Source: Fragilaria crotonensis
Taxonomy: Eukaryota; Bacillariophyta; Fragilariophyceae; Fragilariales; Fragilariaceae
Direction: 5' to 3'
Length of the DNA: 29,940 bases
Assembly: GCA_022925895.1 (NCBI GenBank)
Contig: JAKSYS010000726.1
Location: forward strand, 1 to 29,940
The notes under the pieces are model-generated. The model saw only the letters and a list, made by a program, of their open reading frames with translations. It searched no databases and was not told the origin of the DNA. Below, piece by piece: positions 2,408 through 29,940 of the stretch (positions within the stretch are counted from its first letter, which is position 1; each line of letters starts with the position of its first letter). The position numbers and the translations under genes were made by a program.

Positions 2408-3115
2408 GATGGTGACATTAGTGGTTGAAAATTGTACATTATGCATAATGCCGCTCTTCTAAGTGACGGCGGCATTAGTGGTAGAAAATAACCCACTAAC
2501 GCTGCTCTAGTAGCATTCATACCAGGTACCTGGTACCTGGCATGCATACCCCCGCTCTTGTACGGGACGGCGACATTAGTGGTAGAAAATTATCCACTAA
2601 TGTCGAACTTGTACGGGACATCGACATTAGTGGTAGAAAATTATCCACTAATGTCGAACTTGACAGACATCGACATTAGTGGTAGAAAATTATCCACTAA
2701 TGTCGAACTTTAGGGACATCGACATTAGTGGTAGAAAATTATCCACTAATGTCGAACTTGTAATGACAGCAACATAGTGGTAGAAAATTATCCACTAATG
2801 TCGAACTTGTACGGGACAGCGACATAGTGGTAGAAAATTATCCACTAATGTCGAACTAGTACGGGACATCGACATTAGTGGTAGAAAATTATCCACTAAT
2901 GTCGAACTTGTACGGGACATCGACATTAGTGGTAGAAAATTATCCACTAATGTCGAACTTGTACGGGACAGCGACATAGTGGTAGAAAATTATCCACTAT
3001 GACATAATGTCGATCTTGTACGGGACAGCGACATTAGTGGTAGAAAATTATCCACTTATGTCGAACTTGTATGATATGACATACGGGACAGCGACATTAG
3101 TGGTAGAAAAACTTG
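2408..3115. repeat. Tandem array of about eleven hairpin-forming 51-bp units
   Basis: The core unit is 51 bp and carries two complementary arms, cgacattagtgg and ccactaatgtcg, separated by an A/T-rich loop (tagaaaattat). Each unit can therefore fold into its own hairpin with about 12-bp arms. Units are nearly identical from about 2560 to 2995 and degrade at both ends; several lack one T in the left arm (gacatagtgg). Units are joined by cttgtacgggac. Open frames crossing this region simply follow the repeat and are not genes. Confidence 0.9.
2508..2553 (+). repeat. Flanking repeat of hairpin array, left
   Basis: A block starting tagtagcattc and followed by the nested palindrome accaggtacctggtacctgg lies at the left edge of the near-identical hairpin units. 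Almost the same block occurs at 3119-3164 at the right edge, in direct orientation. Array and flanks may have moved or amplified together. Confidence 0.75.
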
Positions 3116-10957: not shown

Positions 10958-11520
<563 letters not shown>

Positions 11521-12875: not shown

Positions 12876-12895
12876 TCAACAGAACATTTGCGCTG

Positions 12896-12926
<31 letters not shown>

Positions 12927-14408
12927 CCCCATGTCCGCATCGCCATTGACAGATGACGATTGCTGCCCGGGCAATAACTTTCCGGCCTCAGGATCATCAG
13001 GTTCAGGCGCAGCGACTTTGACAATCACACCAATGAAGTTCACAATATTATTGTTTGAATCACGAAGAGCAGCAATGAACAGCTTGTTCCAGAAGGCATT
13101 TCCATCAGCAGTATAGTTGATCATGGTCACTGAAACATCTTCACCGAGCGCAACAGCCTTGCGAACTTGCTCCACCTTTTGCGCGCTCGTTTCTGTGCCC
13201 TGTAAGAATCGGCAATTTCTCCCCAATACTTCTTCGCGGTCGTAGCCAGTCAGATTCAAGAAATCGTCTGAGGCGTACACAATAGGGTTGTCTTGAAGAC
13301 TTGGGTCGGTGATGATGAAACATTGCTGCGATCGTTGAATGCTTCGAACTAGGTTGAAGTCCTGCCCATCTAGATCAGAATTTTCGAAAACGGCATCGTG
13401 GACAGCCTTTGGAAGTGACTCCATGGCATTGCACTCCGACAGGAGCTGTTCCGCTGCCTCCGGACTGAACTTCTTTTTCACAAGATCCTTCAAAATTGTA
13501 TTCTCTCTTTGGAGATCATTTACGTCCTTTTGGAGACCTTCAAAGAAGAACTTCTTTCGAAGTCTAGTTCTTCGTGCCAAGATACGATTGCGCTCTCTCC
13601 TTCGATCAATCTGAGCTTGACTCTTTTGTCGCCCACGGCCAGGCATTGTGTTGTGACCCAGCATCTGAGCATTTCCAAACATCGGTTGTGTCGTGCCTAT
13701 GGAACCGGCATACACTTGCGATGGAACGTCGACGCGGCGACGCTTAGCATCTGACAGATCCATATTAAAAGAGGGAGCAGGAGCTGCGTGGTTGTGAACG
13801 ATCATGACTGGAACTGGTGGCATAGGAGCTGGGACGTGAGCTGGCAAAGTCGGAAACGATGACGGAGCCGACACGTTTGTCATTCCGTGATGCATCTGCG
13901 GGGACGTCATTCCTTGATAAGATACAGAAGTCTGAGCTGAAACAATCATCGGTTGGTGTGGATTGAAAGTAGGCGCAGCTACAGGCGCTGCAGAAGGCGT
14001 TTCTTGAAGAGGCTGTATACCGTCCTCCGACTGCTCCGGCGAAACGAAACCCGAGCCAGACGTCGCCTCACTAGGACATCATATCAGACGAAATTCAATA
14101 TTGAGATAGTTCAAAACGTGACAGACTTACCTGAAATCAAACTGGGGCATCCCAGATGTGTGTGTACCGACGGCGGTCGTTTCATCTAGGAGATACTCTG
14201 CCAAGAGGTCGAAGTCGAGATCACCAGGAACCTGACTGTCACCGTTTGCATCCGCCCATTGTGCCGCCTGACTGGAGGATTGGGGAGCTGAATTTTGAAT
14301 CTGTGAGCTACTGGAAGCAAATCGAGGAAGGGTCACTGGAAGCATAGCAGAGATGGTTGTCATGGCGTTTGAGCTTTGAGCTGAAGAGTTGACGTGACAT
14401 GAGGACAT
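12876..14408 (-). CDS. AUREO: Aureochrome: bZIP-LOV blue-light transcription factor
   Basis: Aureochromes bind TGACGT-type sites through bZIP and sense blue light through a C-terminal LOV domain; they act in the nucleus. Exon 1 (14408-14131) and exon 2 (14070-12876) flank a 60-bp intron (GTAAGT...CCTAG); the join is in frame and gives 490 residues. Order: Ser/Gln-rich N-terminus with DLDFDLLAEYLLDE near residue 65; Pro/Ala-rich region; basic region RRRERNRILARRTRLRKK (about 249-266) with leucine zipper to about 300; LOV domain about 335-446. The flavin-adduct motif GRNCRFLQG is intact (Cys379), as are NYTADG and FWN. The usual Gln in the last LOV strand is Ile (GVIV, residue 442). The C-terminus ends in a run of ten Asp (about 341-351 of the exon-2 Met numbering, 475-484 overall). 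Subtype not settled; the Gln loss may point to an AUREO2-like or otherwise altered photoreceptor. Confidence 0.95.
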
Positions 14409-19671: not shown

Positions 19672-19746
19672 GCAGCCGTTGTCTCAAGAGCCGCTGGCTC
19701 AAGAGCCATTGGCTCAATAGCCGTTGTCTCAAGAGCCAACGGCTGA
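19672..19746. repeat. ggctcaagagcc tandem array, left
   Basis: About five degenerate copies of a 15-bp unit built on ggctcaagagcc plus a variable triplet. The 15-bp period keeps frame, so the minus strand reads a pentapeptide repeat of the type ALEPM/ALETT inside a 60-codon open frame (19826-19644). The same unit recurs at 20141-20242. Confidence 0.8.
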
Positions 19747-20014: not shown

Positions 20015-20140
20015 CAATGGAGACGTAATGCATACGCATACCATCGACCTTAGATGAACTGTCATTTTTTTCCGTTCCCCGTGTGGCGAGTTCTCATTTG
20101 AAGAAAACACGTTCCTCGACTAGTTGGACGAGGTAAATTG

Positions 20141-20242
20141 GCTCTTGAGCCAGTGGCTCAAGAGCCAGTGACTTAAGAGCCAATGGCTCAAGAGCCAGTG
20201 GCTTAAGAGCCAGTGGCTCAAGAGCCAATGGCTCAAGAGCCA
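20141..20242. repeat. ggctcaagagcc tandem array, right
   Basis: About seven copies of the 15-bp unit (ggctcaagagcc followed by agt or aat), the leftmost being inverted at its core (ggctcttgagcc). On the minus strand they read as LALEP pentapeptides without a stop. Same family as 19672-19746. Confidence 0.85.
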
Positions 20243-21083: not shown

Positions 21084-21338
21084 GTCGCACACTGCGGTTG
21101 AGTGTAGTAGTCATGTAGTAGTAGTCATTACTTTACGGATGTCATTCCAAGGTTCTGTACGCAGTATGTACAGTACCAGCTAGCACTGTAATTGAGAACT
21201 CTGAGTCTCTGAGTATGTGCCGCACAGTCTCCTCTGTCCATCATGGATCATGGAGAAGCCATTCGAAATTCGAACCTCAAAAAAGGACGAATTTTTTCGA
21301 TATTCCGTTCGTGCTTGCAAAATTGAGTACTACCTGGT

Positions 21339-21581
21339 GAATCCACTGGATTCCCAGATGTCGCCTCGGCTTTTCACAGCTTCCGGCGATACGGCTAGTG
21401 TGCGTTGTGAATGTCGTAGTAACTGCGATTACTGATTTGCACGCTACTTGTCTGTAGGTTGACTCTAGTATGGCTAGGTCTCTACAGGCGTTGTAGTGGG
21501 CTAAAAACGCAGTGGTTATGACGTTAGTGTAATCCTAGGAGTCAAACGGCTCCTGGATGGCTTTCACTAGCACATGCCTGT
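21339..21581 (-). repeat. Terminal repeat B2 (243 bp)
   Basis: Identical over all 243 bases to 21840-22082 when compared base by base. Identity breaks exactly at both ends (21338/21339 and 21581/21582). In element orientation this is the outermost 3' repeat, so the element/host junction is at 21338/21339. Confidence 0.95.
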
Positions 21582-21839
21582 GGGATGGCGGGTGGGGTAG
21601 CGAAAAAATGGTTAGGCAGATGTAACATCACCATTGCCATCGATTCGATCACTCATGAGAAAAGTGAGTGATCGATTCTCCATCCAGGTATTAGTAATTT
21701 CCCGCCAGTAGTATGGTACTACTGGCTGTCCTTGGTCCATCATACTCCGACTACGTAGCAACTAAGGCTGTAGGCTATGGTGTAGTGTACTATGTGCGCT
21801 AGTACGCCTACTGCAGTTTGGCCTACGTCTTATCTGTAA
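21582..21839 (-). repeat. Presumed A2 segment (258 bp) with stem-loop
   Basis: Spacer between the two 243-bp copies. In the split-direct-repeat model it is A2 and should be identical to A1 at the element's 5' end. It holds a perfect 11-bp-arm hairpin at 21645-21675 (tcgatcactca / tgagtgatcga, 9-nt loop). Confidence 0.7.
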
Positions 21840-22082
21840 GAATCCACTGGATTCCCAGATGTCGCCTCGGCTTTTCACAGCTTCCGGCGATACGGCTAGT
21901 GTGCGTTGTGAATGTCGTAGTAACTGCGATTACTGATTTGCACGCTACTTGTCTGTAGGTTGACTCTAGTATGGCTAGGTCTCTACAGGCGTTGTAGTGG
22001 GCTAAAAACGCAGTGGTTATGACGTTAGTGTAATCCTAGGAGTCAAACGGCTCCTGGATGGCTTTCACTAGCACATGCCTGT
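21840..22082 (-). repeat. Terminal repeat B1 (243 bp)
   Basis: First of the two identical repeats in element orientation, lying 525 bp downstream of the recombinase stop. Its minus-strand 3' end (21840) abuts the presumed A2. Confidence 0.95.
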
Positions 22083-22607
22083 CCCGTGTCGTCTGCTGAC
22101 GCTGTCACCTCGCAGAGGTGGCAGTGGTGGGTGCCGTATCGATCGGATGCAGACGTTAAAGCCGGTGCACTCGAAAAAAAGAAAAAGAAAAAAACATTTA
22201 ATGGAATGTGTTTTTGGGGTGGCTGCGTAGGTGTCACTATGACTTTTCTCGTACATTAGACTGATGCAGTGTGGGCATATGTCATAGTGTCGATACTGCG
22301 TTGCGAGCAAAATTTTAAATTCGCTTACTTCGTTGCGCTTGCGTTTGTGAGTAATGGGCTTACGCGTTACTACGCTGAGTACCGTGAGGTAGCATGTACG
22401 AATATGTGGTACCTTGAAGAGAGGTTCGGTGTTGCGAGCGTAGCGAGGCGAGCCTTTTTGGTGTCGTTTGGTTTTAGTTGTTGCATTGGGATTGTTGCCA
22501 TACTTGACTACTTTAGTGTTGGTAGTATTGCGTTTTAGTATGGATTGTTGCGTTTGCATTTATATGATACCTCGGGGTTATTGGTTGGGAGAAGGGTGCT
22601 ATTTTTA
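22083..22607 (-). other. 3' untranslated part of retroelement
   Basis: Between the recombinase stop and B1. It includes a polypurine run on the plus strand, gaaaaaaagaaaaagaaaaa (about 22170-22195), and no gene. The minus frames here are short and low in complexity. Confidence 0.6.
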
Positions 22608-23744
22608 TTATAGGAAGTTTGGGATGCAGCTAGCATCGTTGAGGGCTTCGTTATGTCGGCGAGATGTGACTGCGAGATTACGAAGGTAAGTCATGAATGC
22701 GTTTGACTTCCATCGCAGTAAATGTTTTATTTCCATTTCATGGAAGCCCATTGCATATAGTGTGGTACATGCGCCAACGCGCAATGAATGACTTGACCAC
22801 ATTTGCAGTTCTGCTCGGTTGGCGATGGGGTCAAGGTTGAAAAGTTTGGATGCGGCGTTGCGTATACCAGTTTCGACGTCTGCAGACGTTATGTTGTAGA
22901 TACTGCCATTACCGTGGCGATATATACTCAATGGCAGGGTTGGGTGTTTATTGGTGAGTTCTGCATGGCGCTTCAGGATTTGCATGAAGTTGGTTACGAA
23001 GCAGATTGCAGGATTTTTAGTGTTGCGGACAAAAAGTTTTTTCTCTCCATTCTCACCGTTTTTTTGCTCTTCAAATCGCAGGCGGATACATCCGACGTCG
23101 TTTGGGTTTTTCAAAGCGTCGTGTATGGTCAGTAGTTGGTTGGATGCTGTTGTACATTGGACGTCGCGCAGGGTGAATGCGTACGCGTTCCCGAACCGGT
23201 TGAGGTGGTGCGAATGGATTGGTTGGTTTGTTGAGTTTGTTTGCATCCATTCGATGCCTCTGCATCCGGCGTATAGATTGCACAGGGTCCAGTTTGCGAG
23301 GGCAGCTTCGATACAACAATCATCCGCTTGGGTTGCTGCGGATTGTGCGATATACTTGTGCATTTCGAGGGTAAATGGCTCGCGTCTGTTAGGGACTGAC
23401 TCCCATCGTTTTTGTTCGTCGAGGACTTTTGCTATGGCAGGTGCCAATCTCGTATCAGCTGTTGATCGAAATCTGGGGTCAACGTCTCGGTATCGTCCGA
23501 GAAATTTTGCAACGTCGAGTAAGTAACTTGCGATTGTGCTTGCTTTTAGCGACTTACAATGGAGCGATGAGCCTGTTGCGAGGTGTGTAGCGTACAAAGC
23601 GAGTTGGTAGTTGGCGCGCTCTTGTGGTTGATTCGCAAGGGTCCAGTCGTCATCTAAGTTCAAAGTGTGACAAAAGATGAAGTAATGGATGCGGCGACTT
23701 CGAATTGTCCGAGCTGTCTTGGCAGAGTTGTGGTTACGTTCCAT
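22608..23744 (-). CDS. Tyrosine recombinase of YR retrotransposon
   Basis: A 378-residue enzyme that would insert the circular cDNA by strand exchange through a covalent Tyr-DNA intermediate. Catalytic landmarks are visible: box I Arg in LYAGCRGIEW (R162); HSLR in box II (H319, R322) followed by VGACTTLYAMG; then IKHLLRWKSNAFMTYLRN, giving W345 in the second-His position (His or Trp is allowed) and nucleophile Y353. The N-terminal 130 residues form a helical core-binding-like region (TIASYLLDVAKFLGRY). The frame is intact, and its first 85 bases overlap the end of the RNase H frame, so the 'start' at 23744 may instead be entered by frameshift from the RT-RNase H polyprotein. Confidence 0.9.
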   Translation of the reverse strand: MERNHNSAKTARTIRSRRIHYFIFCHTLNLDDDWTLANQPQERANYQLALYATHLATGSSLHCKSLKASTIASYLLDVAKFLGRYRDVDPRFRSTADTRLAPAIAKVLDEQKRWESVPNRREPFTLEMHKYIAQSAATQADDCCIEAALANWTLCNLYAGCRGIEWMQTNSTNQPIHSHHLNRFGNAYAFTLRDVQCTTASNQLLTIHDALKNPNDVGCIRLRFEEQKNGENGEKKLFVRNTKNPAICFVTNFMQILKRHAELTNKHPTLPLSIYRHGNGSIYNITSADVETGIRNAASKLFNLDPIANRAELQMWSSHSLRVGACTTLYAMGFHEMEIKHLLRWKSNAFMTYLRNLAVTSRRHNEALNDASCIPNFL

Positions 23745-24346
23745 TGCTCGCTGAACAGCCTGGACTCCAGGTTGGATAAAAGTTCTGGATGAGGGCGGAA
23801 ATAGCGATAGGATGCGAGTTTCGGCGCCTTCGCGAATATCTGTTGGTGGCGCCAGGCCAAAGACGGTATGTGAGTTGGTGGGCGTGAAATAAAATCTGCC
23901 AGGGAATTGTTTTCCCCTTTGATGTGGTTACAAGCGACTGCGATTGAGGTGCGTTCTAAGAGGGCTGCGTACAAATGGACCAGTTGTTGGCCTTTTTCCG
24001 AACGCGATGAGACTTTGTGGGCCCAATTTTGAGAAGGGCTGTTGTCTGTGCGGATAAGCAGTTTTGCTAACGCTGGGATTCCGCAAGGGAATTTTTTTGC
24101 GAGTGAAGGTTGGAGTTGGTTTTCTTCCAGGATGGTAACGACTGCTGCGAGTTGGAGGATGACGATTGTAAACTCCATGACATTGATATGGAGGGTTTTT
24201 GCTGCGATGGCTTGTTTGGTTGTTGTGGACCAGTGCACTTCGAACCAAAATTCAAGTTCGTCACAAAATGCTCCGCCGGCCGTCAGACATGCGTCTCCGA
24301 AACTCGTGAATTGAGGGTCTCTCGGTATGACATGTCCAATTTGCAT
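23660..24346 (-). CDS. RNase H domain of YR retrotransposon
   Basis: Degrades the RNA strand of the RNA-DNA hybrid during cDNA synthesis. The domain shows D18 in SFGDACLTAGGAF, E58 in HINVMEFTIVILQL, D101 in LLIRTDNSPSQNWAHKVSSR and H141/D151 in ACNHIKGENNSLADFISR, the RNase H order used in DIRS-class elements. The tail (155-228) has no recognised domain. The frame is open over 228 codons but is most likely the C-terminal part of the RT polyprotein; the Met at 24346 is probably not a real start. Confidence 0.85.
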   Translation of the reverse strand: MQIGHVIPRDPQFTSFGDACLTAGGAFCDELEFWFEVHWSTTTKQAIAAKTLHINVMEFTIVILQLAAVVTILEENQLQPSLAKKFPCGIPALAKLLIRTDNSPSQNWAHKVSSRSEKGQQLVHLYAALLERTSIAVACNHIKGENNSLADFISRPPTHIPSLAWRHQQIFAKAPKLASYRYFRPHPELLSNLESRLFSEQWNVTTTLPRQLGQFEVAASITSSFVTL

Positions 24347-24377
24347 TTCCCATTTGTAGGTTGGGTTCGCAATGAGA

Positions 24378-26199
24378 CTATGGATATGAGTGAGTTCGCA
24401 TAGTACGGATTGCGTGAGTGGGATTTTGACTTTGCGACCAGAGTAGAGCTGCCATATCTCTTGCGATCATGGCGTCGATACGATGGTGCAAGTGTTTGGG
24501 CAGTTCAGATTTGTATTTTTGGTTTTCCTTGACGACTGATATAGCCTCGGACTTGATGGAATCGGGTTTGATGGCTCGTCTCAGGGCGTTTTGGAATCCG
24601 AAGAAAAGGGTTCGACCTTGGCGGTCTCGCTCGCGATGCGTCTGCGAGGGTTCCATGTAAAGTTGCTGCTTCAATAATGGTGCATGTGTCTTTGGTTATC
24701 CATGATGCGAGCATTTCTGTGAGTGAGTTTCTGTCCTCTGGTAATGTGTATGTGAGTGTTCTCGTGTTGAACTCCCATCCAACGACCCGGCGTGTGTGAC
24801 CATATGCTGATCCAAATTTTTCCCAAGAAATTGGGTCGGAAATCTGCCGTCAGGGTACCCCAGGATTTCATACAGGCTAATGATGCTTGCTGCTGCTGCT
24901 CTGGGCATGAGTTCCGATATATCTCCATACATGTTATCATCGACGTGATGATTATATCGGGGTGCTTGCCTGTTTCCGTATTTGTCGAAAACTCCTCGAT
25001 TTTTTGAGTCGGGTATTGCGATTGCGAAAGTTGTTCTTTCTGCTTCTGTCGCTGGTTGCGCAAATGAAATTGGTGGCATGTATTTGGCTGCGCGGTTGAC
25101 AATGTCGGGGTCGTGCACAGTTTTTGTGCAAGTTGTTGTCGGGCGCGTGCGATTGGTTCCCAGTTGGATGGGCTTGTGTTGTCGCCAAACGTTAATCCTG
25201 TGTGCATGATGAGTGTGTCATGCGAGATTGCACTGTGCATTGCGACTAAATTCGGGTTGTATTTGATCCGAGGGAATGCGCATTGAACATCGTCGTCGCC
25301 TGTGTGTCGATCGTTCTTTGGGTATGAGATCGCTAGGTTCCAGTGCCAAATGCAGAATTGTTGGAACGAATCGGCGAAATGAAGCGGTGGTTCGTTTACT
25401 TTGCTGGTCCAGTCGTTTATTGAGTGTGCCTGCCCAAGGCCTGAAACTGCTATCCGATACTGGTCGTGGCTTTCGTCTGTGGTGCAGTATGTCGACGAGG
25501 CCTTGCGGTGTCAGGTGGGTATTGAGCGTGAAATGGACGAGCGCCGGGTCCATAATTAAGGTAAGGCCTCGTTTGCTTTGCTTCACGATGGTGCTTCTGA
25601 ATGCGTCTGGGTTTTCCTTGCTGACTTGTGGTTCCCATAATTCAGATATGCATTGAAGTTTTCATTTGTCGCTTCCGCGTTGCAGTATGCTGGCGCCCCT
25701 GTTGTTAGGATCCTGTCAACGTCATCGTACACATCTTTCGTGAGTACTGGTTTGAGTTTCGCGAGTACTTCTGGGGTGTTGATGTGTTGGTGCACGTGGT
25801 CCGCCAATGAAACGAACGACTGTTGCTATGTCTCCATTAAAATGGAGGGCACATGCTGATGTCATCGCTTTCCAGTCGTCTCTTATTGTTGCCGTCTCCT
25901 CCCAGCCTTGTTGGTAACCTTGCAGGCTTCGAAAATCCAGTGGGACATACTTTTTCGAAGTTGCTGAAGTTGTCGTACCCGATACGATGCTTTTCGAGGG
26001 CTTTGGTTGCCCGACATGACAAGAAGCCGCTTTTCAGGAGCGGCAATAAAATGTGACACAATGATTTGGCAGAGTAAAACGATTGTTGTAATGAGTCCTT
26101 ACCGAATGGTTGGTCGAGTTGAACTTGGACACTTGTTGGCAAATTGTCGCAACGAAATGCTCGAGCCGTTGCGTTGTAAGTTTGCCTGGTGCGAGCCAT
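24378..26199 (-). pseudogene. Reverse transcriptase of YR retrotransposon, several frameshifts
   Basis: Pieces of one RT are spread over changing minus frames. From 5' to 3': TPQGLVDILHHRRKPRPVSD near 25500; motif A TGDDDVQCAF then RIKYNPNLV (about 25300-25250); FGDNTSPSNWEPIARARQQL (about 25180-25120); the catalytic box HHVDDNMYGD (about 24947-24918; HVDD where YVDD is usual); thumb-type LTEMLASWITKDTCTIIEAA; and RTLFFGFQNALRRAI near 24590. All key Asp codons survive. At least five one-base frame changes are needed between 25800 and 24380. Upstream of 25837 another open piece (26199-25837) may be the RT N-terminus. The breaks may be decay or sequence error. Confidence 0.8.
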
Positions 26200-26589
26200 G
26201 TTGCCTGCTGTTTTTGCTTGAGGATGCTTTCATTGCTGGTATTGCCTTTGGACTCGCTTTGTTCGTTCCATTATTGCTTGGAACTTTCGTACATTCTGAC
26301 ATCACAGGCGGTAAGTCTGAGTTTTCGTTGTGTGATTTTGTGATGACTTGTTTTCTGTGCCGTGCGGTACTGCTCTTTGTCTTGTTCTTGTCTTGTCGGC
26401 TGTGGGTTTTTGTCACTTTGTGCTATCTTGTGATAATACTTTGGCTTGGTGGACATTGCTGTGAGTGGCATTCGGATGTGTGTAGTGACCGGCGTTGCTA
26501 ATTGGAAACTAGGCAGCAGGAGTGGTTCTACAGTGCGATAAATGAATTGACTTCGTGAGTGATTTTGAATGGATTTTATTTATGGCACT
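26200..26589 (-). other. Gag-RT junction region
   Basis: Inside the retroelement, between the Gag stop and the first RT piece. A minus frame at 26416-26099 is Ser/Lys/Asn-rich and overlaps the RT frame; it may be a linker of the polyprotein. Nothing else can be named. Confidence 0.4.
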
Positions 26590-29093
26590 TTATGCGGTTG
26601 AGTTTGTTGTGGACGATTGGTTTGACGAGGAGTTACCTGCTGGTGTTGCCCATGCTGCGGCTTCGGGCGTCCATTCAACTGCTGCTTGGGATTGAACCCA
26701 CGTAACCATCTTTGCTTTGATGTCGTTGCTGACTGAATTGTTGAGATTGTTCGGGAAATGGAAGAAGTTGCACGTTGGGTACGTGCATGTTTTACCTTCG
26801 TATGCGCTGCGACAGCACATTAAAGTGAACTTGTTTGGTCTCGATGGATGAGGGAATATTGGCCCAGGATGGAGTAGCTTTGCAGAGGAATCGGTGGCCA
26901 GCTGTTTAAGGATTGTTTTCCCTTGCGCTGCGGTTGGCTGTGCAATGTTGTCCAGCAAGTTGCTAGCGTTTGGGGTGTTTCCTGTTGTGGGGTTGCGGGG
27001 GATACGATTGGTGTTGGTAGGCGTGGTTCCGGTAGTTCTCGTTCGGTTCGTTGATTCGCCTGCTGCTTCTCCTTGGGCTTGGCGTTTCTTTGCTGCTTCT
27101 GGTGGTTGAAATTGCTTGAAAACAAAAGATGCTTCTTTGTATGGTCCTGCCGTCATCGTCAAGATTGTGCTTTGGAGATTTTGGCGGAGTTGGGTTCCTT
27201 GCATTTGTGGGTGCTTGAAGATTTCTGGCGAAATTGTTCCCGTTGATACGGCGTTTCGGTATCCTTGGCGGCGAGCGACTGCGACGAAACCTGCAATTGT
27301 TGATGTGATTTCTTGGAACACATTAAACATGAGCTCTTTTGCGTTGCGGTGAAGTTCGAACCAGCGACGTCCTTCGGTTGTTCGCATGACTTTATCAAAC
27401 TCAACAATTTCGGTCCATACCGTTGGTGGATGGGCTGCGTCCATGACGATGATGGTATTCATGAGGCAATAGAAGTTGCCGATACTTGTGTTGATGTCGT
27501 TGATGCCTCCCATCTTGCCGAAGTGGTACAGTTCGGTTGACTTGGCGTTAGTTCGGGAGCTTGCTTCTTCGACTTGCTCTTGTTGGATGACTTTGATGGC
27601 TCCTTCCATTCGCGTCTTGTATTCTGCAGTCCATGTTCTTGCTGGTGCGAGATGATGAAATGCGAAATGTGTTTTGATACCTTCGGGATGGAGAACTGTG
27701 TGCTGATGCGCCCATGTTGCTGTCCTGATTGCGGCTGTGAGTGGTTGGTCGAACAGTTCTGCTTTCAAGTCGCTTGCTGAAGCGAAGCGGTTGTCTTTGA
27801 AGTTCATTTCGGATGCGACTGCTTCAATTGCTGTTTGGAGAAGTTTGGTTGCCTTGCTGTTTTTATTTGCCTTCAGAACTTGAATGAAGACGCTGTCGAG
27901 GGCGGCTTTTTGAACGTTTTCGTTGTTGTTCCATCATCGTTTGTTGTTTCGATAATACTCGCGAAGAGGATCTCGAGAAAGCTTGATTTTCCTTTGCTTC
28001 GCTCGTGCTCACGTTCTGTGCTCGTCATTGCTTTGGACGAATTATCGGTGATTGCCGATGTGAGGTTGAGCAGGATTGCTTCGACATTATCGGTTGGAGT
28101 GATGTGTGTTGCACTTGCGTTGATTCGTTCTGGTGCTTTTGGCGGGGTTGTGAATGCAATTCGACGAGTGAGTTTGCTTCCGTACGTGACGTATGCGTTT
28201 TCTTTGGTTGCGAGGACGGCGCTTGTGACTTTGCGATACAATGGGTCGTTTGAGTCAAGAAGTTGACTACGACTGTAAAGCGGCTGACGAGGTTGGTTTC
28301 CGTGTGAAGGGAGTTGCGTCGAGTTGGGTGTACGTGAAGAGTGTATCTCGTGCTTGGATGGAGTAGTTTTTGAGGTTCACTACTCCGTACCTCATAGATT
28401 CATACCAAAGATGGAATTCGTCGAGGTTTGGCGAGCCTGGGAGGTTTCGGATTGTATCGGTGGTTGTAACATCGATGATGTTAGCTGTTGGAATGCTGTA
28501 TCCTCCTGTGAGTGGGAAGATTTTGGGGATCAGGGTGATGCATGGAGTGTCAGTTGGGTCACTGATTTCGATGCCAAGGCGGTCTGGTCCTGGAGGATCT
28601 GCGACGGTTCCTTCCTCGGGATCGGGACCTTCTTCGTTCAATGGGTCGGATGCAGAGATTGCCATGCTGAGGAGGGTTGGAAGGCTCGTCATAGGTGCGA
28701 TGGTGATACACTGGCCTTTGACGTCTCGCATGCGGATGGTGACAGGGCAGATTACATCCATGGCGTCGCCAAGAGAGCCGGCGAAGACGGCTTCGGTTCC
28801 TTTTGCGGTTGGGAAAGGACAGGAGAGAATAGCTAGCGTAGCTGGTCCGTTTGGGACGTCCATGAGGAAGGCCATTTGGTTGACTAGTCCGCTGTCGCAG
28901 AGGTTAGCGAGACGGGTATCCGCTGGGAAGTCTTTGGAAAGAGTTGTTGCAACGCGGAGAGCCTTGGATGGATCGGGTTCGTAAGCATGAGCGAAACTGT
29001 TGAGCTTCGCATCGCTGGCGGCTTGGTGAGCTAGATCACGGAGGGTGGGTCTGCGGCTGCAGGGTTAGGAACGTTGGTTTCGACTGTCAACAT
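26590..29093 (-). pseudogene. Gag-like protein with CCCH zinc knuckle, three frameshifts
   Basis: Capsid-type protein that would package the element RNA. The last piece (27807-26590, 405 codons) is helical (ELMFNVFQEITSTIAGFVAV), then has a Gln/Pro/Thr/Asn-rich linker and a zinc knuckle in its last quarter: C332-x8-C341-x4-C346-x3-H350, in CCRSAYEGKTCTYPTCNFFH. Upstream pieces continue it: 28241-27873, 28875-28267 (extending upstream in frame to about 29040) and an N-terminal MLTVETNVPNPAAADPP from ATG 29093. Joining them needs two one-base gains and one loss (near 29035, 28270 and 27890), and the total then divides by three, giving about 834 aa. Family membership rests on position and the knuckle. 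Confidence 0.65.
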
Positions 29094-29940
29094 GGTTGAA
29101 AGAGGTTTGTTGCACTTTGGAGTTTAGACGGGAGGTTGTTGAGATTGCTTTTTTGTGTGCATAAATTCACTTTATACATGGGTGTGTGAATGGCTTTGCT
29201 TTCTAGTATTACTTTGGTGTATAAAGCAGGGTAGAATGTTTGCTGTATCGTTGGGACTGGATTCGAAGTGGGTTTGGGGTTGTTTGGAAATGGGGCAGGT
29301 ATTATAGGTGTGCATGTATATTTAGTCACACAGACGATAAATCTCTTGATTTTGAATGTTTTGTTTTGCGGTCATTGTGGTCTTAGTTTTCCATTGTATT
29401 TCGGGTACTACTTCGTTTGTGTTTGTAGGTGTAGGTACGCTATTTAAGTAGTGTACTTAAGTTGTATATGGTAGTACGTTGTACTATTTTTGTTGGGTAG
29501 GATATATTGGTCTCCTGTATGTATAAATTACACGTTGGCTATTTAGTGTTCTTGGATGTCTGCGTGTTTGGATTGCTCGTATTTAGTACAGTTGGTGTGT
29601 GTTTGAAATGTCTTTTACAGATAGAGATCTTTTTGAGTACATGACTCGGTTTGTTCGAGTTTTATGATTGGTGCCATCATTGTGAATTCAATGATGTTTA
29701 TTTGTTGTTGCACTACTACTCGGACTAATGTATTCGTTTACAAAAGTTGTAGATTGGGTTGTTTGGTTGATAGCTTGATCGCTAGTTTTGTTAGCATCGC
29801 TTGATGCGTTTGTAATGTGTGATTTTATCGTGATGATTTTTGGCGGCGGCGCCGATTGCAGGATCGCAGGATCGCGTTTGTTGCTGTAATAGTTGTACAA
29901 TTGTTGTATTGACACATACATTGCTATAATGTAGTGTCGT
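29094..29940 (-). other. 5' leader of retroelement, no gene
   Basis: Upstream of the Gag start on the minus strand and running off the window. It keeps the T/G-rich plus strand of the element, and no frame of note is seen. I found no match here to the presumed A2 segment (21582-21839), so A1 and the true 5' end lie beyond the window. Confidence 0.55.

Follow-up and report, generated by a model that had tools for sequence, protein, structure and literature searches.

The window analyzed in this work is an entire contig of 29,940 nt (C698, accession JAKSYS010000726.1), which is part of a genome of 62.1 Mb in 881 contigs. From position 21339 to the contig end (29940), its minus strand carries an element with a gag gene, a pol gene for a putative reverse transcriptase (RT) and a putative RNase H, and a gene for a tyrosine recombinase (YR), followed by split direct repeats (Table 1). 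We regard it as very probable that this is a YR retrotransposon of a diatom, with split direct repeats arranged as in Ngaro and VIPER elements. The copy in the window is broken, and relatives with open frames exist.

We fetched 12 copies of the same family from the same genome (L009-L020). Across the genome copies the order is A1-gag-RT/RNase H-YR-B1-A2-B2, over approximately 8.3-9.3 kb, where A1 and B2 are the left and right terminal repeats and B1 and A2 are their internal copies. The leftmost 270 nt of the element are missing from the window contig: the first element position in the window aligns with position 271 of the L009 element, whose A1 occupies positions 1-242. The missing part is therefore A1 plus 28 nt.

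Table 1. Features of the retrotransposon copy in the window, from its right end to the contig edge.
Feature	Position	Strand	Evidence or remark
B2, right terminal repeat, 243 nt	21339..21581	-	100% identical to B1; right flanks vary between insertions
15-nt spacer separating B2 from the A-like part of A2	21582..21596	-	C-rich in the sense of the element; not found after A1
A2, internal copy of the left terminal repeat A1	21597..21839	-	Matched by A1 of other copies
B1/A2 junction (B1|A2)	21839..21840	-	Sequence expected at the closed joint (B2 to A1) of a circular intermediate
B1, internal copy of the right terminal repeat	21840..22082	-	B1 = B2
YR, 378 aa from Met, open frame	22608..23744	-	R162, H319, R322, Y353; weak PF00589 match; Cre-like structure model of low confidence
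pol (RT and RNase H), broken over three frames	23663..26338	-	Aligned open-frame relatives
RNase H motifs	within 23882-24346	-	
RT motifs	fingers 25443-25466; A 25274-25297; B 25160-25177; HVDD 24936-24947; E 24760-24792	-	
gag, in pieces	26590..28875	-	ORFs
gag C-terminal CCCH finger, C-x8-C-x4-C-x3-H	26752-26814	-	
5' leader	28876..29940	-	Contig ends here; A1 missing

Split direct repeats

A previous reading of this DNA, made from the sequence only, had described a perfect repeat of 243 nt around a segment of 258 nt. The two copies of the repeat (21339-21581 and 21840-22082) are indeed 100% identical and enclose 21582-21839. If the repeats are split as proposed, a second copy of the enclosed segment is expected upstream of gag, and we found one in 11 of the 12 fetched copies; the sole copy lacking it, L013, is truncated at a contig edge. 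The match to A1 covers roughly the first 243 nt of this segment and leaves out its final 15 nt (21582-21596), which form the border between A2 and B2; the C-rich character of this border is common to all four families aligned (4/4). At the host flank, A1 starts with TTACAGATAAGAC in 10 copies and with a slightly altered version in L012. At the other end, B2 terminates in the hyphenated palindrome GAATCCAGTGGATTC, which abuts host DNA at 21338/21339. Left flanks are shared by L010 and L011 and by L014 and L019, and right flanks by L009, L012, and L013; several of these copies are probably alleles or duplicates that go back to a single insertion, so that the 11 copies with A1 amount to about 9 left flanks.

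Within each element, the copies of a repeat are alike. No substitution separates B1 from B2 in the 9 elements compared (9/9; L010 and L012 have 2 gap columns each), and A1 and A2 differ by 0-5 substitutions and at most 12 gap columns in 6 of 7 elements, the seventh (L019) having 18 substitutions. The same repeats compared between families differ by 16-34 substitutions. Such a pattern, likeness within the element and not between families, is expected if the repeats are regenerated in each copying cycle. Genome-wide, we counted 37 exact B ends and, allowing at most 1 mismatch, 12 B|A junctions; the reversed control sequences gave none of either. A repeat search of the L015 and L009 elements returned both expected direct pairs, an extra pair of 30 nt with 73% identity in L009, and no inverted pair reaching 25 nt in either element.

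Short blocks at the borders of the repeats are kept in the four families aligned (4/4): CGTCAGCAGACGACAyGGG before B1, GAATCCwGTGGATTC at the end of B, and TTTCGCTA..CCCACCCGCCATCCC before B2. These conserved blocks, which lie in 21339-22100 of the window and in the relatives, are likely functional sites. A putative YR-binding dyad around B|A was an impression obtained by eye, and we do not claim it.

Some copies depart from this arrangement. L020 lacks B1 and part of A2. L016 (C429) and L018 (C412) have A1, lack A2-B2, and end on the right with just one B, an arrangement that could result from a deletion between B1 and B2, from the insertion of a circle with one joint, or from assembly collapse. 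L012 (C736) shares its right flank with L009 (C33) and L013 (C591), has a left flank unlike that of C33, and is the copy with the altered A1 start; this is either a rearrangement or an assembly chimera.

Insertion sites and recent movement

We searched the genome with the two joined flanks of four insertions (L016, L020, L015, and L011). The joined flanks of L016 occur uninterrupted elsewhere, in further copies of a host repeat (at best 300/300 nt, 100% identity), and those of L020 were found in four places at 99%. Both empty sites join exactly at the element ends, with neither target-site duplication nor deletion.

The family moved very recently, since L015 and L018 are nearly identical and occupy different sites: an alignment of 8767 columns, of which about 500 recount the repeats of L018, shows 3 mismatches and 20 indels between them. 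L009 and L013 differ by 13 mismatches and 42 indels, 30 of the latter being of a single base and 23 of these lying beside the same base; the window copy and L009 are separated by 65 mismatches and 42 indels. Among the copies that are nearest relatives of one another, indels outnumber substitutions and are mainly single bases adjoining the same base. Hence, sequencing error may explain part of the broken frames, alongside real decay.

Tyrosine recombinase

The residues R162, H319, R322, and Y353, which the sequence-only reading had named, are present in the window open reading frame (ORF) and invariant in the 7 proteins aligned (7/7). The stop-to-stop frame of the YR (22608-23927) overlaps the 3' end of pol, and the same overlap occurs in the four loci where both frames were seen (L015, L038, L039, and L041); in L015 the YR frame is broken further downstream. 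All 7 aligned proteins match PF00589 weakly, the best match being that of the window YR (19.5 bits, E 8.8e-4), which is under the curated cut-off. With the structure model of the YR, the best 27 rows of the Foldseek search are tyrosine recombinases, with Cre first (E 1.7e-5). A sequence search of the PDB gave 17 sequences, consisting of Cre and its derivatives (E 0.078-0.44), and an integrase family of PHROGs was matched by 4 of the 7 YRs (best E 1.3e-4). Three further PF00589-like matches, below the cut-off with 24.5-25.5 bits, occur in the genome at C40:88599-89024, C22:13660-14085, and C722:70792-71214, and are possibly Cryptons or members of another YR family.

The element thus has a tyrosine recombinase in the place of a DDE integrase. 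Its gag-pol order, and the presence of Gypsy-type elements in the host, would suit a long terminal repeat (LTR) retrotransposon with damaged ends beside an unrelated recombinase gene. Yet none of the features of LTR elements was found: the A1 and B2 ends differ, Pfam gave no integrase match among 9 pol proteins of the family, and there is no target-site duplication at the two empty sites. In addition, the layout recurs in many copies. The LTR explanation, which the left-end A1 copies, the empty sites, and the repeat comparison already contradict, has in our view a next to negligible chance of being right.

Putative reverse transcriptase and RNase H, and gag

The sequence-only reading had credited the window with an RT with intact Asp residues and with an RNase H motif set. 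The motifs and the Asp residues are present, but the window pol is broken: a first frame has the fingers motif and HVDD, with a stop between them, a second has motifs A and B, which stop codons separate from the RNase H motifs lying in the same frame, and a third has motif E. Nine pol ORFs of the family are open across RT and RNase H, with 57-66% identity to the first of them. The catalytic Asp of motif A is invariant in 9/9, and so is the HVDD box that had been pointed out in the window. The pol of L016 and that of L040 diverge from the common sequence after RNase H. The fingers motif, RPLSDSSF...AIND, presumably resembles the fingers of DIRS-type RTs. Motifs A and B are separated by 40 residues, as in a Gypsy element that this genome also contains, motifs B and C by 77-79 residues versus 22 in this Gypsy element (55-57 extra), and motifs C and E by 52 versus 45.

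The proportion of synonymous differences between RTs (pS) is 0.76-0.91, near saturation, and that of nonsynonymous differences (pN) is 0.13-0.21 in the 12 pairs listed out of 36. Synonymous sites being near saturation while pN is low, these comparisons indicate that the RT has long been maintained by selection. At the sequence level, purifying selection is apparent in both RT and YR. A gag of about 830 aa had also been proposed, and this length holds for the open relatives (822 aa in L015 and 828 aa in L020, from the first Met), but not for the gag of the window, which is in pieces. The CCCH finger is found at the end of gag in the 4 sequences checked (4/4).

Several results weigh against the identification of the element as a YR retrotransposon, and most of them concern the RT. 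The Pfam models of RT and RNase H match none of the 9 pol proteins at a limit of E 10, a limit despite which the filters of HMMER discard most matches above 0.1. A profile comparison of the family RT with the Gypsy RT gave a probability of 0.2%. Three hidden Markov models (HMMs), run against 8 RT proteins of this genome and 160 shuffled controls, gave no signal, the eight best listed rows being shuffled sequences for each model. The structure model of pol failed, with a predicted local distance difference test (pLDDT) score of 38. The YR model is itself of low confidence (57.6), and falls under 50 from residue 315 on, a part that includes H319-Y353. The joined flanks of L015 and L011, two of the four insertions tried, gave no empty site in the genome. 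Finally, the circle, the transcript, and the enzyme activities of the copying cycle discussed below are what we infer from sequence.

The failure of the RT profiles is not general in this genome, where one Gypsy, one LINE-like (long interspersed nuclear element), and one group II intron RT, taken as positive control, match RVT_1 at 8.7e-28 to 3.6e-31. For pol, a sequence search of the PDB returned nothing and NCBIfam gave no credible match. By the profiles used, the RT is neither grouped with the LTR or LINE RTs of the genome nor recognized as an RT. A genome scan with RVT_1 gave 111 places, and the family pol was found in at least 63 places (48 of 239 candidates were scored); compared by eye, the two sets have no overlap, and only C493 is in both, at different coordinates. 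We therefore call the RT by its motifs, their order, and their context, rather than by tested homology. Of the 111 RVT_1 places, 14 are in C880. The one of these that was scanned (L029) proved to be a group II intron maturase, and this contig may be an organelle genome rich in introns.

An RT and an RNase H that profiles do not detect might suggest a Crypton-like DNA transposon carrying a gag-like gene and a gene other than an RT, and Cryptons are known in diatoms (PMC4157794). However, motifs A, B, C, and E occur in order, with the A-B spacing of Gypsy, the catalytic Asp is invariant in 9/9, and an RNase H motif set follows. Moreover, the likeness of the repeats within elements is expected of reverse transcription and not of a cut-and-paste mechanism. 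We thus consider a Crypton-like transposon very improbable.

Classification

A published feature key assigns split direct repeats downstream of a YR, without methyltransferase, to the Ngaro or VIPER arrangement (PMC4157794). The element has such repeats, with internal copies after the YR, and Pfam gave no methyltransferase match in the 9 pol proteins or in the gags of L015 and L020. One of 7 YR proteins matched N6_Mtase (E 0.0038); this match lies inside the YR domain and was taken as chance. The sequence-only reading had placed the element in a PAT/Ngaro-like branch. Its first part, a YR retrotransposon with the order A1-genes-B1-A2-B2, is retained, and the PAT half is dropped in favor of the Ngaro/VIPER arrangement because of the feature key and the lack of a credible methyltransferase.

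PAT-like elements (Pat1, TOC3, Kangaroo), members of the DIRS group with a methyltransferase, also have a YR and split direct repeats (PMC4157794, PMC6681497), and a PAT-like group was reported in the brown alga Ectocarpus (PMC12477816). The silence of Pfam on the methyltransferase is weak evidence, because the same library misses the RT, and a divergent methyltransferase could evade it in the same way. The lack of room is a better argument: the pol of L015 continues for only 76 residues beyond the last invariant position of RNase H. A PAT-like element, whose distinctive methyltransferase was not found here, is accordingly unlikely. DIRS1-like elements share with the diatom element a YR, a YR frame overlapping pol, and, to judge by the motifs, an RT and an RNase H. 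They differ by inverted terminal repeats and an internal complementary region, which were not found in the L015 and L009 copies of the diatom element, where the repeats are direct; no methyltransferase was found in it either.

The closest likeness in layout is to Ngaro, with A1-ORFs-B1-A2-B2, gag followed by RT/RNase H and then YR, no methyltransferase found, and stramenopile hosts. Ngaro elements of types 1-4 were reported in Cafeteria burkhardae (PMC8547959), and Ngaro was also reported, along with PAT-like elements, in Ectocarpus (PMC12477816). The diatom element is larger (8.3-9.3 kb versus about 6-7 kb in Cafeteria, PMC8547959), its RT is missed by PF00078 and its RNase H by every Pfam model, and it has HVDD where the sequence-only reading expected YVDD, a CCCH finger in gag, and an insert between motifs B and C. 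The VIPER/TATE elements of kinetoplastids also have A1 and B1-A2-B2, RT, RNase H, and YR without methyltransferase (PMC6681497). Here the host is a diatom, and the likeness is one of layout and features, not of sequence.

The differences from Ngaro raise the possibility that the element belongs to none of DIRS, PAT, Ngaro, and VIPER and represents a separate deep lineage of YR retrotransposons. Pfam misses the RT in 9/9 proteins, whereas the Ngaro RTs of another stramenopile match PF00078 (PMC8547959), and the 55-57 extra residues between motifs B and C relative to Gypsy, as well as the CCCH finger of gag, point in the same direction. On the other hand, the layout and the repeats are those of Ngaro/VIPER, a single genome was sampled, and sequence divergence alone is no proof of a separate origin. 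We regard a lineage of its own as a tentative possibility, somewhat doubtful on present evidence, and describe the element as a divergent variant of a kind already known in stramenopiles.

In the parts covered of PMC2806351, PMC3145265, PMC12477816, PMC6681497, PMC8547959, PMC3266345, PMC4157794, PMC3783388, PMC3155517, PMC8613185, and PMC5859163, no element of this sort is described for a diatom; this literature is exclusive of subscription papers and Repbase. A "DIRS" class of 14 copies is given for P. tricornutum (PMC5859163), and a "Gypsy/DIRS1" class is listed for Chaetoceros. No relatives were confirmed in IMG/VR (queries with pol, RT, YR, and RNase H), in phages (one RT/RNase H query), or in GTDB genomes (pol alignment), which carries little weight as these are viral and prokaryotic collections.

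Proposed copying cycle and its significance

By analogy with the published Ngaro/PAT model, a transcript lacking the extreme ends would be packaged by gag and copied by the RT/RNase H. The ends that were lost could be restored with the internal B1-A2 block as template, whose sequence runs through the joint of both ends, and this restoration would close the cDNA into a circle. At its B|A joint, the circle would then be recombined into host DNA by the YR, leaving A1 as the left end and B2 as the right end. Recombination at this joint would duplicate no host bases.

YR retrotransposons are reported to be rare, and for the most part their copying cycle is known as a model. In this genome, the exact empty sites, the copies that are nearly identical, and the likeness of repeats within elements make this model testable by sequence. 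A sizeable retrotransposon family can also evade the standard RT profile, which bears on the annotation of diatom genomes. If the element represented a deep lineage of its own, such elements would go unannotated in diatom genomes, comparable families might hide elsewhere, and the question of a single versus several origins of YR retrotransposons would gain a further case.

Host and other features of the window

The host had been taken for a photosynthetic stramenopile, in agreement with our results. The window has an aureochrome-like gene at 12876-13949 (bZIP_2 and PAS_9/LOV domains); aureochromes are not known outside photosynthetic stramenopiles. The genome gave 19 silicon-transporter matches, 18 of them over the cut-off, and a diatom host is thus very likely. 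Among 14 control genomes, one gave a match, below the cut-off. Two of the silicon-transporter loci have tandem domain matches in one open frame, three at C97:29749-33762 (1456 aa) and two at C771:21664-24330 (1008 aa).

Outside the element, the window has a TCA trinucleotide array of 560 nt (10959-11518), encoding Ser, His, or Ile runs, and a tandem repeat of about 10 copies of a 51-nt unit (2557-3071). Two arrays of a partly palindromic 15-nt unit like TGGCTCAAGAGCCAG are found at 19674-19737 and 20139-20242.

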